Of a stretch of DNA of 64,000 bases, positions 55,666 through 61,805 are shown piece by piece. The notes below the pieces were generated by a model that ran no database searches, had not been told where the DNA came from, and worked only from the letters and a program-made list of their open reading frames with translations. The DNA is from Anaerorudis cellulosivorans (lineage in GTDB: Bacteria > Bacteroidota > Bacteroidia > Bacteroidales > Dysgonomonadaceae): the NCBI RefSeq assembly GCF_025943985.1, contig NZ_JAPCWE010000004.1, positions 1 through 64,000 on the forward strand, written 5' to 3'. How positions within the stretch are numbered: position 1 is the stretch's first letter; the number at the start of each line of letters is the position of its first letter. The translations under genes were made by a program, and so were the position numbers.

Positions 55666-56970
55666 TTAAGTGAGATTGAATAAGGTTTTTTTAAATGCAT
55701 TATAATCATTCGAAAGTTGGAAAGCTTGTTTTTTGCGTTGCATAAAAGCGGATAATCTATCGGGAACCTCGACATCTTGACCTATGCATTTTTCTACGGT
55801 TTCTTTAAATTTTGCCGGATGTGCAGTAGCAAGGAAAACACCGGTTTCGTCGGTTTTTTTCCCATCTTTCAAGGCCTGATATGCACATGCTCCGTGAGGA
55901 TCCAGCAGATAACCGGTTTTCTCGTAAACGATTCGGATAGTATTTTTGATTTCTTCATCGGTGTATGTACTTGCCGAAATATCGTTTTGTATAGCTTTGT
56001 GTGAATGATTGTAAAGATCGAGAATACGCTCAAAATTGCTGGGATTACCCACATCCATTGCGTTAGCAATGGTTTGAATTGAAGCCCTTGGGTTGTAATT
56101 ACCACTATTGAGGTATTGATAAAAAACATCGTTCCGATTGTTGGCAGCAATAAACCGTTTGATGGGCAATCCCATTCTTTTTGCAAATAAACCGGCAGCC
56201 AGATTCCCCAAATTGCCACTCGGTACAGCGACAACTGCATTATCTTCGAGCTGTTGTTTTGCTAATTGGGAATAGGCATAAAAATAGTAAATGGATTGAG
56301 GCAGAAAGCGGGCAATATTAATAGAATTGGCTGAGGTGAGGTACATTTTTTTGTTGAGTTCTTCGTCCACGAAAGCCGATTTTACCAATGCCTGACAATC
56401 GTCGAATGTGCCATTGATTTCCAATGCAACAATATTTTGTCCAAGGGTTGTGAATTGCGCTTCTTGAATCTCGCTTACTTTACCTGATGGATACAAAATA
56501 AACACTTGAATGCCTTCTACGCCTAAAAAACCGTTAGCAACCGCACTTCCTGTGTCTCCTGATGTTGCAACCAATACTTTCAGGTTTTCGTGATGTTGTT
56601 CTTTTACAAAATAGGATAACATGCGAGACATGAAACGCGCTCCAACGTCTTTAAAAGCAAATGTCGGTCCGTGAAAGAGTTCCAGTACATATATACCTTC
56701 TTCCACTTTTTTGAGCGGGATGTCGAAATTGAGTGATTCGATTACGATAGCATTCAATTTTTCTTTATCAATATCTTCTCCGAAGAATTTTTCGGCAACT
56801 ATTTTTGCAATATCTGTTAAGCTGAGATTCCCGATTTTATTGAAAAAATCGGCAGGCAACCGGTTTATTTTTTCAGGCATATATAATCCTTTATCAGGTG
56901 CAAGTCCTTTTATTACGGCTTCTTGCAAAGAAGCAATTGGGGCAATATGTCTTGTACTGTAGTATTTCAT
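55666..56970 (-). CDS. thrC: Threonine synthase
   Basis: 434 residues, PLP-dependent fold-type II, the long (yeast-like) class. It begins with YYSTRHIAPIASLQEAVIKGLAPDKGLYMPE. The PLP lysine lies in HGPTFAFKDVGARF, and ATSGDTGSAVANGF is the phosphate-binding segment. Further on is SGNLGNLAAGL. It converts O-phosphohomoserine to threonine. It is the last gene of the thrA-apgM-thrC operon; its start lies only 1 base after the apgM stop. Confidence 0.97.
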   Translation of the reverse strand: MKYYSTRHIAPIASLQEAVIKGLAPDKGLYMPEKINRLPADFFNKIGNLSLTDIAKIVAEKFFGEDIDKEKLNAIVIESLNFDIPLKKVEEGIYVLELFHGPTFAFKDVGARFMSRMLSYFVKEQHHENLKVLVATSGDTGSAVANGFLGVEGIQVFILYPSGKVSEIQEAQFTTLGQNIVALEINGTFDDCQALVKSAFVDEELNKKMYLTSANSINIARFLPQSIYYFYAYSQLAKQQLEDNAVVAVPSGNLGNLAAGLFAKRMGLPIKRFIAANNRNDVFYQYLNSGNYNPRASIQTIANAMDVGNPSNFERILDLYNHSHKAIQNDISASTYTDEEIKNTIRIVYEKTGYLLDPHGACAYQALKDGKKTDETGVFLATAHPAKFKETVEKCIGQDVEVPDRLSAFMQRKKQAFQLSNDYNAFKKTLFNLT

Positions 56971-56971
56971 T

Positions 56972-58189
56972 TTATTCTGGTTGTTCTGAAAATAATGTTT
57001 TTATAAATTCGTTGCCATGCAAAAGTCCGTAGCTTCCCTTTCGGGCTGCAAATTCGTCATATGTCATCACATCATCCGGCTTTATATATCGGTGATAGAT
57101 TACAAAGGGAACAGCTCCTCGAGTGTGAGTGCGGATAGCACAAGGAGTTGGGTGATCAGGCAAAACGGCAATGGTAACCGGCTCGTTCATTTTCTCGATC
57201 TCTTCATAAATGGGTTTTACGATTCGTGAATCAAGGTTTTCGATGGTTTTTATTTTCAGCGGCACGTTACCTTCGTGCCCGGCTTCATCACTGGCTTCAA
57301 TATGAAGATAAACGAAATCTTTTTCTTTTAGTGCTTTTATTGCAGCTTGAGCCTTCCCTTCATAATTCGTATCATATAATCCTGTGGCACCTTCCACCAT
57401 TATCACTTCCAATCCGGCATAAACGCCGATTCCGCGAATCAAATCTACTGCTGAGATAACTGCTCCGTTTTTTATCGGGAACATATCTTTCAAAGCTTTC
57501 ATGGCGGGTCTGTATCCGGGAGACCATAGCCAGATACTATTGGCAGGATCTTTCCCTTCAGCTTTGCGTTTATGGTTAATGGGATGGTCTGCCAAAAAAC
57601 GCTGAGAAGCAAAAATGAGATCGTTAAGTCGATCAGCGGTTGCTTTTGAAGGTTCGTCTATCGGTTTTATTAACGAAGGTCGGAACGGCTTTTCAGGAAT
57701 GTCGTGTGGAGGTGTACATAGGATGTTTTTGTTGCCTCCTTTCATCTTTAATAAATGTCGATAAGATACTCCGGGATAAAAACTGATGGTTTCGTCTCCC
57801 AGTTTCTCGTTAAGGAAAGCGATGAGTTCCTTTGCTTCAGCGGTTGAAATGTGTCCGGCGGAATGGTTTTTTAAAAGTTCTCCTTCTATACATACCAGAT
57901 TACAGCGCATAGCCATTTCTCCCGGCAGAATATCGACACCCATGCTGGCCGCTTCCAAAACGCCACGTCCCTCGTAGACATGAGGGATATCATATCCTAG
58001 TACCGATAAATTTGCGATCTCGCTTCCTGGGGGGAAACCATCGGGAACCGTATCAAGTAATCCGTTTCGGCCTTTGGCAGCCAATAAATCCATATAAGGG
58101 GTGTGCGCAACTTGTAATGGCGTTTTATTTCCCAATTGTTCAATGGGCTCATCAGCCATGCCATCGCCAAGTATAATGATATATTTCAT
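56972..58189 (-). CDS. apgM: Archaeal-type cofactor-independent phosphoglycerate mutase; possible homoserine kinase analogue
   Basis: 405 residues from the ATG at 58189 (MKYIIILGDGMADEPIEQLG); an earlier in-frame start at 58264 lies inside thrA and is rejected. The alkaline-phosphatase-like metalloenzyme fold shows the metal site GDGMADEP, NLSVLGYDIP, HIEASDEAGHEG and LPDHPTPCAIRTHTRG. Formally it interconverts 2- and 3-phosphoglycerate. It lies between thrA and thrC, exactly where a homoserine kinase would be expected, and no thrB is in the window. A role as a homoserine kinase substitute has been proposed in comparative genomics. That function here is inference. Confidence 0.92.
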   Translation of the reverse strand: MKYIIILGDGMADEPIEQLGNKTPLQVAHTPYMDLLAAKGRNGLLDTVPDGFPPGSEIANLSVLGYDIPHVYEGRGVLEAASMGVDILPGEMAMRCNLVCIEGELLKNHSAGHISTAEAKELIAFLNEKLGDETISFYPGVSYRHLLKMKGGNKNILCTPPHDIPEKPFRPSLIKPIDEPSKATADRLNDLIFASQRFLADHPINHKRKAEGKDPANSIWLWSPGYRPAMKALKDMFPIKNGAVISAVDLIRGIGVYAGLEVIMVEGATGLYDTNYEGKAQAAIKALKEKDFVYLHIEASDEAGHEGNVPLKIKTIENLDSRIVKPIYEEIEKMNEPVTIAVLPDHPTPCAIRTHTRGAVPFVIYHRYIKPDDVMTYDEFAARKGSYGLLHGNEFIKTLFSEQPE

Positions 58190-58202
58190 AACCAAAAAAT
58201 AA

Positions 58203-60647
58203 TTATCGGATGTTTGCAATGGAAATGATATCCGAAAAAACGCCTGCTGCCGTAACGTTGGCACCGGCGCCGTATCCTTTTATCACCATTGGGTATTCGT
58301 TGTAACGTTCTGTTGTGATCATGATGATATTATTGCTCCCTTCCAAGTCGTAAAAAGGATGTCCTTGTCCAACTTCGTGTAACCCAACTTCACATTGTCC
58401 ATTCTCGTAAATAGCTACGAAACGAAGTTTTTTCCCTTCCTCTTCGAGCTTTTTTCGCCGAATTTCAAATGCTTCGTCTATTTCGGGTATTGTTTCCCAA
58501 AATTCATCCAAGGTCCCTTCAAAATATTTTTCAGGGATAAATAATTTCTTTTTCACATCACTTTGTTCCACTTTGGCTCCTGCTTCGCGAGAGAGGATTA
58601 CCAATTTGCGAATTACATCGAGTCCACTCAAATCAATCCGTGGATCGGGTTCGGCATAATGGGCATCAACAGCCATACGGACGGCTTTACTAAAAGGAAT
58701 ATCTTTGCTTAGTGTGTTGAAGATAAAATTCAATGTACCCGAAAGCACAGCTTCAAGTTTTATGATTTTATCACCCGAATTAATGAGTGAATTCATTGTA
58801 TTAATTATGGGGAGTCCGGCTCCGACATTTGTTTCGAAAAGAAATTTAACACCCGACTTTCGGGCAGTTTCTTTCAAACGGCGATATGTTTCGTAGGAAG
58901 ATGAAGTGGCAATTTTGTTTGCTGTGACTACAGATATATTTTTCGACATTAGTTCTTCGTACAGATCAGCAATTTCTTTGCTTGCGGTACAGTCCACAAA
59001 AACGGCATTAAAGATGTTCATATTTAGTATTTCGTCCCGAATAATAGCAGGCGAACTTTTTATGCCGCTTGTTGCCAGTTCTTTTTGGTAATCGTCGAGA
59101 GATATGCCTCCCCGGTTAAACAAGGCTTTACGACTGTTAGCTATACCCACAATATTGATTCGTAATTTGTTTTGCTCTTCAAGGGTATGCTTTTGTTGGC
59201 GTATTTGGGAGAGTAGTTTATTTCCTACCGTACCGGTTCCGACGACAAACAGATTCAGTTCCTGATAGGGGGAGAGAAAGAACGAGTCGTGTATCACGTT
59301 CAATGCTTTTCTTAGGTCATTCTTTGAAATCACGCATGAAATATTGGTTTCCGATGCTCCTTGTGCCAATGCTACCACACTGATACCGCTTCGGCCTAAT
59401 GTGCCGAAAAATTTTCCTGCAATTCCCGGAACATGTTTCATGTTTTGTCCTACTATAGCTATAGTAGAAAGATCGTATTCAACCGTAATTTCATTGATAC
59501 TTCCCATTGCGATTTCTTGGGCAAATTCTTTGTTTAGTACTTTTTGAGCAAGTGCGGCATCTTGCGTTCTGACGCCGATTGAGGTACTGCTTTCCGATGA
59601 TGCCTGTGAAACAAGAAAAACACTTATTCCGTTGTTTGCCAATGCTGTAAAAATGCGTTTATTTACTCCAATCACACCTACCATACCTAATCCTTGTATA
59701 GTAATCAGCGCTGTATCTTTAATAGACGAAATGCCTTTGATAATTTTCCCATTGCGTTTAGGCTCTATATTGCGAATAAGTGTTCCTCCCGATTGAGGAT
59801 TAAATGTATTTTTTATGCGGATGGGGATATTTTTGTGATAAACGGGGAAAATTGTGGGAGGATAAATCACTTTTGCTCCAAAATTTGATAATTCGATTGC
59901 CTCGATAAACGAAAGTTCATCGATCACATATGCCGAATTGATGATTTTGGGATCGGCAGTCATAAAACCATCAACATCAGTCCATATTTCAAGGGCTGAA
60001 GCATCCATTGCTGCAGCTATAAGTGCTGCGGTATAATCCGATCCGCCACGACCAAGATTGGTAATGTCGTTTTCTTCGCTACTCGATGAAATAAATCCGG
60101 GCACCAACATTACCTTTGGAAGAGGAGATTCTGAAAATGTTTTCCTAATGAGTTCGTAACAAAGGGGGATATTGGGAATATGGCTGTTGAACTGGATTGA
60201 AGTTTTAATGAACTGCGTTGGATCGTAAAGCTTTGCCCCGTCAATCACTTTACTGATAATAAGTGAAGATAATCGTTCGCCGTAACTCACAATTTTATCG
60301 GATGTTTTTTGCGACAAATCGCCGATGAGGAATACGCCACGTAAAATGTTTCGTAAATCATCATACAAGATCTGTATTTTTTGTTTTATTTCTTCTTTTT
60401 CTTGGCTTGAGATTATCATTTTTTCTATCATTTCTTCGTGCATAAGAATGACTTCTTCCAGAATGGTTTTGTATCCGGCATTCGACTTAACTGCAAAATC
60501 GGCCGCAAGTAAAAGTCTGTCGGTAACACCGCCTAACGCCGAAACAACAACAATTACCGGTTCTATTTCTGATTCGATAATTTTTTTTACTATCTGTAGA
60601 CCTTCGGGAGTTCCTACGGAAGTCCCACCAAATTTCATAACTTTCAT
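58203..60647 (-). CDS. thrA: Bifunctional aspartokinase / homoserine dehydrogenase
   Basis: 814 residues. The N-terminal aspartokinase has MKVMKFGGTSVGTPEGLQ and TNLGRGGSDYTAALIAAA. Two ACT-type regulatory domains (about 310-450; IQGLGMVGVIGVNKRIF and IVGQNMKHVPGIAG) sit in the middle. The C-terminal homoserine dehydrogenase opens with FVVGTGTVGNKLL and includes DCTASKEIADLY and GTLNFIFNTLS. It catalyses the first and third steps from aspartate toward homoserine, normally under threonine feedback. It is the first structural gene of the thr operon, preceded by a leader with attenuator features. Confidence 0.97.
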   Translation of the reverse strand: MKVMKFGGTSVGTPEGLQIVKKIIESEIEPVIVVVSALGGVTDRLLLAADFAVKSNAGYKTILEEVILMHEEMIEKMIISSQEKEEIKQKIQILYDDLRNILRGVFLIGDLSQKTSDKIVSYGERLSSLIISKVIDGAKLYDPTQFIKTSIQFNSHIPNIPLCYELIRKTFSESPLPKVMLVPGFISSSSEENDITNLGRGGSDYTAALIAAAMDASALEIWTDVDGFMTADPKIINSAYVIDELSFIEAIELSNFGAKVIYPPTIFPVYHKNIPIRIKNTFNPQSGGTLIRNIEPKRNGKIIKGISSIKDTALITIQGLGMVGVIGVNKRIFTALANNGISVFLVSQASSESSTSIGVRTQDAALAQKVLNKEFAQEIAMGSINEITVEYDLSTIAIVGQNMKHVPGIAGKFFGTLGRSGISVVALAQGASETNISCVISKNDLRKALNVIHDSFFLSPYQELNLFVVGTGTVGNKLLSQIRQQKHTLEEQNKLRINIVGIANSRKALFNRGGISLDDYQKELATSGIKSSPAIIRDEILNMNIFNAVFVDCTASKEIADLYEELMSKNISVVTANKIATSSSYETYRRLKETARKSGVKFLFETNVGAGLPIINTMNSLINSGDKIIKLEAVLSGTLNFIFNTLSKDIPFSKAVRMAVDAHYAEPDPRIDLSGLDVIRKLVILSREAGAKVEQSDVKKKLFIPEKYFEGTLDEFWETIPEIDEAFEIRRKKLEEEGKKLRFVAIYENGQCEVGLHEVGQGHPFYDLEGSNNIIMITTERYNEYPMVIKGYGAGANVTAAGVFSDIISIANIR

Positions 60648-60762
60648 GTTGATTATGAATGATTAACCCGTTTTTTTAACGGCAATTGAATACTAAAGAA
60701 TAAAGGAATATTTTTGGAAACGAGAACCGAACGGTTCGTGAAAAACAAGAAATTGTTTGCGG

Positions 60763-60794
60763 AAAAAAAATCAGATAACCCCCCAAGGGGTCAT
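60763..60794 (-). terminator. Candidate attenuator hairpin in the thr leader
   Basis: On the minus strand ATGACCCC-TTGG-GGGGTTAT makes an 8-bp stem (one G-T pair), then CTGA and T8. It ends about 115 bases before thrA. A ribosome paused on the Thr codons 16 or 18 would cover the 5' arm. Confidence 0.5.
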
Positions 60795-60842
60795 TGTCAT
60801 TGAGGAAAGGGTTTGAACGTATGTTGAATAAAAATTATTCAT
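60771..60842 (-). CDS. Threonine operon leader peptide
   Basis: A 23-codon frame, MNNFYSTYVQTLSSMTMTPWGVI with a TGA stop, not previously marked because of its size. It starts 21 bases after the -7 element. Four of 23 residues are Thr, two of them in MTMT near the end. The frame's 3' half overlaps a hairpin at 60775-60794 followed, after four bases, by T8 at 60763-60770. This is the layout of a transcription-attenuation leader. Translation is not proven. Confidence 0.6.
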   Translation of the reverse strand: MNNFYSTYVQTLSSMTMTPWGVI

Positions 60843-60862
60843 CGTTGACGTTTAATTTGTTG

Positions 60863-60870
60863 CAAAGATA
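60863..60870 (-). promoter_or_regulatory. thr operon promoter -7 element
   Basis: On the minus strand TATCTTTG, an exact match. Transcription starting about seven bases on leaves a 14-base untranslated stretch before the leader peptide and about 210 bases before thrA. Confidence 0.6.
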
Positions 60871-60922
60871 GGTTTTTATCGGATAAAATGAAATAAAAAA
60901 TGGAAAAAAAATAGGAGCAGGT

Positions 60923-60970
60923 CTAAAAACAAAAAACCGTCTCTTAACTGAGACGGTTTTTTGTTTTTAG
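60923..60970 (-). terminator. tsf terminator, 21-bp perfect inverted repeat
   Basis: 60923-60943 is the exact reverse complement of 60950-60970 (core CCGTCTC/GAGACGG with A- and T-rich outer arms) with loop ttaact. It follows the tsf stop on the minus strand and separates the ribosomal operon from the thr operon. The A/T-rich outer arms give T-runs on both strands. Confidence 0.9.
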
Positions 60971-60983
60971 AATCGAAAATGAA

Positions 60984-61805
60984 TTATGCATTTAACGAAA
61001 CACGTTTAAAATCAACAACCTCCAAATCTTTATCGTGTTGTTTTAGAAATTCACCAACAGTTAATTTGTTGTCCTTTATGTATTCCTGTTGCAACAAAGT
61101 AACTTCTTTGTAGAATTTCTGCAGAGCACCTTCGGCAATTCTGTCCAACAAATTATCGGGTTTACCTGCTTCCCGGGCTTTTTCGCGTGCAATCTCCAAT
61201 TCTTTTTCCTTAACTTCGGCCGGTATACCTTCGGGAGTTATGGATATGGGATTCATAGCTGCAATTTGCATGGCTATATCTTTTGCTACTTGCTCATCCA
61301 CATTAGGTTTGTTGAAACCCACTATAGTAGCTAACTTATTTCCCATATGCACATATGCTGTAACATAAGGTGCAGAAATATGTTCGTAGTATCCCAGCTC
61401 CATTTTTTCGCCTGTTGCTCCAATTTTATCGGTTATGAGATCTGCAATTGTTCCTTTAGGGAGCTGAATTGCAAGCAATTCATCCAACGTTTCGGGCTTG
61501 TGCTCCATCGCTGCATCCAGTATTTGTTGCGTAAGGGCAACAAATTCGGCATTCTTTGCTACAAAATCGGTTTCGCACTGTAATGCTACGATTGCAGCAA
61601 AATTGTTTTCAGCTTTGGCAAGAACGCATCCTTCGGATGCTTCGCGATCTTCGCGTTTTGCAGCGACTGCCTGTCCTTTTTTTCGGATGATTTCCATCGC
61701 TTTATCAAAATCTCCGTTTGCTTCGGTCAATGCATTTTTGCAATCCATCATCCCCGCTCCTGTCATTTTACGAAGATGCTGGATTTCTGCCATTGTAACT
61801 GCCAT
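60984..61805 (-). CDS. tsf: Elongation factor Ts
   Basis: 273 residues. The N-terminal UBA-like domain begins AVTMAEIQHLRKMTGAGMMDCKNAL. The conserved core segment IVALQCETDFVAKN follows, then HISAPYVTAYVHMGNKLATIVG. EF-Ts exchanges GDP for GTP on EF-Tu. It lies 23 bases downstream of rpsB as the last gene of the ribosomal operon. Confidence 0.98.
   Translation of the reverse strand: MAVTMAEIQHLRKMTGAGMMDCKNALTEANGDFDKAMEIIRKKGQAVAAKREDREASEGCVLAKAENNFAAIVALQCETDFVAKNAEFVALTQQILDAAMEHKPETLDELLAIQLPKGTIADLITDKIGATGEKMELGYYEHISAPYVTAYVHMGNKLATIVGFNKPNVDEQVAKDIAMQIAAMNPISITPEGIPAEVKEKELEIAREKAREAGKPDNLLDRIAEGALQKFYKEVTLLQQEYIKDNKLTVGEFLKQHDKDLEVVDFKRVSLNA

Follow-up and report, generated by a model that had tools for sequence, protein, structure and literature searches.

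A threonine-rich leader frame that ends in its own hairpin precedes thrA in Anaerorudis cellulosivorans and other Bacteroidales and is probably a threonine sensor

How could a ribosome on a short leader frame signal to the genes that follow when no separate antiterminator is apparent, and would threonine and methionine be read jointly by it? Both questions are raised by the layout found ahead of thrA in the window, the whole stretch of 64,000 nucleotides of A. cellulosivorans DNA that was analysed. The order on the minus strand is the leader, thrA, a proposed homoserine kinase gene and thrC, and tsf is upstream of the leader. The thrA product is aspartate kinase / homoserine dehydrogenase I of 814 amino acids (58203..60647; NF006959, 1003.7 bits, cut-off 726), the apgM-like proposed homoserine kinase (56972..58264; TIGR02535, 559.7 bits, cut-off 446.3) matches its model from residue 26 of the frame, and thrC encodes threonine synthase (55666..56970; TIGR00260, 317.5 bits, cut-off 167.1). 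ThrA was found in all 101 genomes of the window's family, taken to be the Dysgonomonadaceae, and that of the nearest named genome, Bacteroidales bacterium UBA1410 (L033), is 97% identical. One family genome, G089, has two thrA copies with equal scores (on C48 and C51) and a contamination of 7%.

The leader promoter has the -7 element TATCTTTG (60863..60870, minus strand), which fits TAnnTTTG, the sequence that we take to be the Bacteroides -7 consensus. Downstream of it on the same strand is a frame of 23 codons closed by TGA, MNNFYSTYVQTLSSMTMTPWGVI* (60771..60842), with Thr at codons 7, 11, 16 and 18 and internal Met at codons 15 and 17. Within its last codons lies hairpin H1, AUGACCCC-UUGG-GGGGUUAU (60775..60794, minus strand), whose eight pairs join arms 60794-60787 and 60782-60775 across a UUGG loop with a predicted energy of -11.1 kcal/mol, one flanking base on each side included, and whose 5′ arm is the codons ATG ACC CC(T). 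A run of eight T (60763..60770, minus strand) begins 4 nt past the stem, C and TGA occupying the gap. A sequence-only reading of this DNA had pointed to the exact -7 element, the frame with its four Thr codons, an 8-bp hairpin overlapping the final codons and the T run, and each was confirmed on the minus strand. H1 is the sole terminator-like site listed between the promoter and thrA on that strand. Three further hairpins of the same strand follow it. H2, AAACAA-UUUC-UUGUUU (60743..60758), is a weak A-U hairpin that came from local folding of 36 leaders, in which many relatives have a GC-richer hairpin at roughly that position; H3, GAACC-GUUC-GGUUC (60724..60737), covaries in relatives; and H4, CCGUU-AAAAA-AACGG (60668..60682), directly 5′ of thrA, recurs in relatives with covariation judged by eye. 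Between tsf and the leader, at 60911-60975, there is a strong terminator (-31.5 kcal/mol), a long and nearly perfect palindrome flanked on either side by A and T runs, which perhaps works on both strands. The interval 60600-61000 is unique in its own genome, except that this palindrome matches its own opposite strand.

By itself the window leader is unconvincing, since base shuffling gives p = 0.057 for four Thr in 22 codons and the fold of the entire leader does not surpass that of shuffles (z -0.20, 84 of 200 equally good), and it is the relatives that decide. These same two figures are what an explanation by chance, with an AT-rich leader that holds a fortuitous frame and hairpin, has in its favor, and that explanation, to which we give almost no credence, is refuted by the frame, codons and stem conserved in relatives. 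A short Thr-rich frame ending in H1 was found in 54 of the 90 family genomes inspected, and frame and H1 are present in every uncut leader (54) of eight genera, so that the lack of conservation which the sequence-only reading had named as telling against it was not what was seen. The 36 leaders without frame and H1 are from genus g2 (20), g3 (6) and five small genera (8), with two cut by contig ends. Eleven of the 101 genomes, with thrA truncated, split or represented by distant matches only, were left out (G028 and G071 were usable), and two of the 90 inspected have fewer than 180 nt upstream of thrA.

Over the 50 distinct family leaders 281 of the 1011 codons in frame (27.8%) are for Thr, versus 3.7% in the other two frames and a shuffle mean of 78, with the proviso that frames were chosen to have at least three Thr, which favors the Thr share, and yet no uncut leader in the eight genera failed. 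Met accounts for 10.7% of the in-frame codons of these leaders, and as 41 of 685 codons outside H1 are Met, its enrichment is partly, not wholly, due to the H1 sequence. A second family, that of G152, is presumably the Bacteroidaceae, the named leaders matched by its model R2 (described below) being mostly from Bacteroides and Phocaeicola. Its 39 distinct frames have 24.3% Thr and 13.5% Met, where the stop was the one whose frame has most Thr codons and the start the farthest in-frame ATG within 32 codons, a choice that biases toward Thr and also Met. TAnnTTTG occurs 8-80 nt 5′ of the frame in 49 of the 50 distinct family leaders (2.9 expected by shuffling) and in 38 of the 39 Bacteroidaceae leaders (1.8 expected). 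In the window's family the Thr codons outside H1 are spread over ACA (90), ACT (76), ACC (57) and ACG (9), versus ACC in 49 of 49 inside it, which argues for selection that keeps the amino acid outside H1 and the stem inside. Synonymous one-base codon variants before H1 numbered 12/30 and 9/18, the neutral expectation being 0.25 and 0.24. Seven leaders (L014, L022, L023, L028, L120, L121 and L123) have a frame that stops at a TAG within the H1 loop and not past the stem, from which the final codons Trp-Gly-Val look dispensable. The 23-residue peptide, a very short query, had no match to Pfam or NCBIfam families up to E 10. The suggestion of a threonine leader peptide for a thr operon gains support from the conservation of frame and Thr codons together with thrA, the proposed homoserine kinase gene and thrC downstream, and very probably the frame is the Thr sensor part of ribosome-mediated control before thrA; perhaps methionine is sensed by the leader as well.

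The H1 stem is almost invariant and its loop variable (UUGG, CUGG, UCAG, UUAG, UAUG and others). Relatives have a ninth pair, between the third base of the codon preceding the ATG and the third base of the codon preceding the stop, where the window leader has an A.C mismatch. It is formed in 47 of 54 leaders (C-G 28, U-A 12, G-C 5, A-U 1, U-G 1; one of the 47, L133, has a shifted 3′ arm), and since shuffles, which here and in the alignments below ignore the relatedness of leaders, give a mean of 28.7 and a maximum of 39 in 10000 draws, this covariation, for which the sequence-only reading had proposed to look, marks H1 as a stem evidently selected as RNA. Among distinct rows 31 of 36 have the pair, with 0/10000 shuffles as good; four of the seven exceptions are all the leaders of the target genus. 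In alignment A1, 28 of the 54 family leaders chosen by us for similar length, H1 and H3 together have a covariation of 0.194 versus 0.097 shuffled (0/500), and seven of the nine pairs in H1 are invariant; double-change pairs (139/500) and further pair types (89/500), two of the five measures, are not above shuffles. Alignment A2, of 14 of the 16 Bacteroidaceae leaders with the divergent L065 and L096 left out, has 0.226 versus 0.139 shuffled (0/500) with double-change pairs and pair types unexceptional (202/500 and 129/500 shuffles); there H1 is 91.7% paired over the 14 leaders with no double change, and the support comes from two other hairpins, which follow H1 and do have double changes. Bare RNAalifold on 36 leaders returned H1 alone.

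Models built from the leaders behave as expected of an element tied to thrA. Up to E 1, R1 matches the target genome at a single place, the leader, and it has one match in each of 55 of the 101 family genomes, 55/55 before thrA with coordinates compared by eye. R2 has one match in each of 48 of 151 second-family genomes, the best 30 of the 48 all preceding thrA (30/30); the counts for both models include training members. Across 198 order-wide genomes R2 gave five matches, two of them strong and from the same second family, and three weak with no thrA among the reading frames listed nearby.

As to what the sensor does, we regard it as an even call that the element attenuates the operon of thrA, the homoserine kinase gene and thrC by way of the ribosome, with H1 as a weak terminator here. 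The ribosome on the leader frame would report the supply of charged Thr-tRNA, and probably of Met-tRNA too, and the output would be H1, built from the frame's own last codons, no separate antiterminator having been found. With ample threonine the ribosome would finish and leave, H1 would form and, with its T tail, most likely act as a weak intrinsic terminator at which part of the transcripts end; under threonine shortage, the 5′ arm would be masked by a ribosome waiting at Thr16 or Thr18, and RNA polymerase would continue into thrA. Translation, stalling, the sign of the response and termination at H1 are what we infer.

The footprint of a ribosome extends about 12 nt past the codon that it occupies (PMC4833913). 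From Thr16 or Thr18 the ribosome would thus cover the H1 5′ arm, as the sequence-only reading had it, but its reach is to 60810 from Thr7 and to 60798 from Thr11, both short of 60794. Of the 281 family Thr codons 133 are H1-covering and 148 are not, and every distinct leader has both kinds (50/50 in the window's family and 39/39 in Bacteroidaceae, 89 in all). A stall at a non-covering Thr codon leaves H1 free, which is the wrong sign for a simple terminator, as starvation would lower expression. Also, with the stop against or inside H1, a finishing ribosome would cover H1 for a while, so that the proposal that a terminator forms once the ribosome finishes is helped by the T-rich tails enriched in the family and hampered by this brief covering. 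The early non-covering Thr codons are the chief weakness of a mechanism by covering of the arm: it leaves three options, namely that stalls at the late Thr codons prevail, that pauses of the polymerase govern the timing, or that forming H1 is not what turns expression off.

The non-covering codons favor an alternative, quite possible if less so than the attenuator, in which the frame senses Thr (and Met) but H1 is not a terminator and instead alters the fate of the message otherwise, together in Bacteroidaceae with a helix, P1, described below. Candidate routes are Rho access, RNA decay and thrA translation, and H1 formed on an early stall would in that case mark the ON state. A point against this alternative is the T-rich tail enriched downstream of H1 in the family to which the window belongs. 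Under a permissive criterion, 37 of 54 family leaders, that of the window among them, and 2 of 39 Bacteroidaceae leaders have a terminator-like H1; under a second criterion that differs little from it, 36 of the 54 have a T-rich tail behind H1, versus 17.5% at other positions of these leaders. The conservation of the T run, which the sequence-only reading had proposed to test, is seen as an enrichment in the family but is patchy, the tail being missing in two of the four target-genus members, the longest T run being 2 or fewer in 13 of the 54, and eight T in a row occurring in one. In Bacteroidaceae, where a consistent T tail is lacking, the H1 pairing in A2 is as high as given above, which again is more readily accommodated by an H1 that does not terminate, as are the further hairpins between H1 and thrA. 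Against such an H1, no clear conserved pairing was found that links it to the thrA start. For the window's family the terminator model is plausible.

P1 pairs the start of the frame (often UACUAUC) with the segment directly after the stop (GAUAGUA) in Bacteroidaceae. Its two strands change together, as in CAUUAUC/GAUAAUG (L190), ACAAUC/GAUUGU (L203), CUAUAUACA/UGUAUAUAG (L202) and ACACAUUAUA/UAUAAUGUGU (L183), and little or none of it is present in several leaders, e.g., L185, L199 and L081. Pairing is better with the strand from the same leader than with one exchanged between leaders (z -5.9, 0/2000), with a mean Watson-Crick run of 6.4 versus 5.4 (0/5000) and at least six pairs in 26 of 39 leaders versus 39% of exchanged pairs. 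A ribosome at the Thr codons beside P1 would block it. P1 thus speaks for the non-terminator alternative, while in the window's family its counterpart is outside the best 10 of 36 region pairs, which speaks against. In both groups these tests covered 36 region pairs. They drew on the 39 distinct leaders among 43 from Bacteroidaceae and, of the 50 distinct ones in the window's family, on the 34 with at least 145 nt after the stop. In the window's family the segments around H3 also stand out (z -4.6). Weaker signals (z -3.6 to -2.1), for which lineages are confounded, were left aside: in the window's family, the part from codon 10 to H1 with the 30 nt immediately upstream of thrA (z -3.6, 0/2000, energies near -4), the beginning of the frame with the H2 region (z -2.3) and those 30 nt with the thrA start (z -2.1); in Bacteroidaceae, the 5′ UTR with the corresponding 30 nt (z -2.9) and the -60 with the -30 segment (z -2.4).

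A classical four-segment attenuator would have H1 as the 1:2 protector, the H1 3′ arm with the H3 5′ arm as antiterminator and H3 as terminator. It is suggested by the complement GGUUAU/AUAACC in a few leaders (L011, L013 and L026 among them) and by a stop so placed that a ribosome there covers segment 2. Yet the 3′ arm and the H3 region have a mean longest run of 6.3 versus 6.5 shuffled over 34 leaders, so this route to an antiterminator was rejected, and no long T run was seen directly at the base of H3 in 36 leaders; such an attenuator is improbable. Folding of 23 leaders with the end of the 5′ arm and all before it masked likewise gave, among the folds listed, no H1 partner common to species, and the earlier remark that there is no strong alternative antiterminator holds by both approaches. 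H2 as terminator was ruled out, as sites 20-39 nt past H1 occur in just 5 of 54 leaders. Some folds suggest that the conserved UUUUCACAUCC, which lies past the stop, sequesters the thrA start, but this was also rejected, changes in either strand being uncompensated on inspection; pairing of the post-stop segment with the thrA start is outside the best 10 of 36 region pairs in the window's family and weak in Bacteroidaceae (z -1.9, 59/2000). Two other observations concern the stretch past the stop. In leaders of g8 and g9 a well conserved UUUUCACAUCCG, mostly without predicted pairing and with no pairing partner found, comes soon after it, and a T-rich stretch without predicted pairing recurs by eye ~15-20 nt past H3 in both families.

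Enterobacterial-type thrL (RF00506, Thr_leader) is like the window leader in having a short Thr-rich frame before thrA and an expected response to Thr-tRNA. Thr and Ile codons abound in it, and past the frame comes a GC-rich terminator, whereas the codons here are for Thr and Met, the hairpin is the end of the frame, and there is no Rfam match: in the window the leader matched nothing at gathering score, and RF00506 is absent among 32 matches up to E 5 on 60600-60990. The organism's own genome offers two further comparisons, leader frames whose presence counts in favor of the attenuator reading. Its trp leader (L209:59-194, G000:C20), upstream of a trpE-like gene, matches Bacteroid-trp (RF01692), like the thr leader a Bacteroidota leader peptide before amino-acid genes, and has two Trp codons side by side and, well beyond the frame, a strong terminator of 15 pairs; RF01692 itself has no match on the thr leader. 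Its his leader (L207:1319-1375, G000:C1), before hisG and with no Rfam match at gathering score, shares with the thr leader the promoter type and a short codon-rich frame (MKVNMLHHHHFHTCLQAR; MLHHHHFHTCLQAR), which follows TAnnTTTG and includes HHHHFH, but has downstream a GC-rich 11-pair terminator with a T run. The thr leader of the window has no strong terminator downstream of H1, unlike these two, and this too favors the non-terminator alternative. A simple scan of one strand found no such frame before the gene read as ilvD. In pyrBI-type coupling attenuators the terminator overlaps the leader frame, as H1 does here, and the ribosome itself blocks the terminator; unlike the case here, nucleotide supply is sensed, through polymerase speed, and not amino-acid codons. 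In layout the thr leader thus stands apart from RF00506 and, within its own genome, from the his and trp leaders. A conserved frame rich in codons for the product, with the biosynthetic operon for threonine downstream, would place it with leader-peptide attenuators, its translation being presumed; as no conserved mutually exclusive antiterminator was found, it is not filed under the classical form.

Most of what is known about regulation by leader peptides comes from Proteobacteria and Actinobacteria. For Bacteroidota, Rfam has the trp leader RF01692, but nothing was found there that matches this thr leader, and the open-licence literature, to which the search was confined, yielded no thr leader of Bacteroidota. 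Vitreschak et al. 2004 (FEMS) may list Bacteroidetes attenuators. Short frames in B. thetaiotaomicron leaders recall attenuation, with thrA not named in the portion of PMC7366714 used here, and a 2010 survey states that before its own Bacillus finding such regulation had been shown outside Proteobacteria and Actinobacteria for ermC alone (PMC2965389).

More tentatively still, the thr operons of Bacteroidales may have a distinct design, with a Thr and Met frame, last codons that are themselves the output hairpin, and no antiterminator. In Bacteroidaceae, with P1 formed from the frame start and the post-stop segment, the ribosome would open one of two helices, the output would not be intrinsic termination, and H1 on an early stall may be the ON state. 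Whichever way the output is read, an element before thrA with one match per genome and covarying stems is a target testable in Bacteroides.
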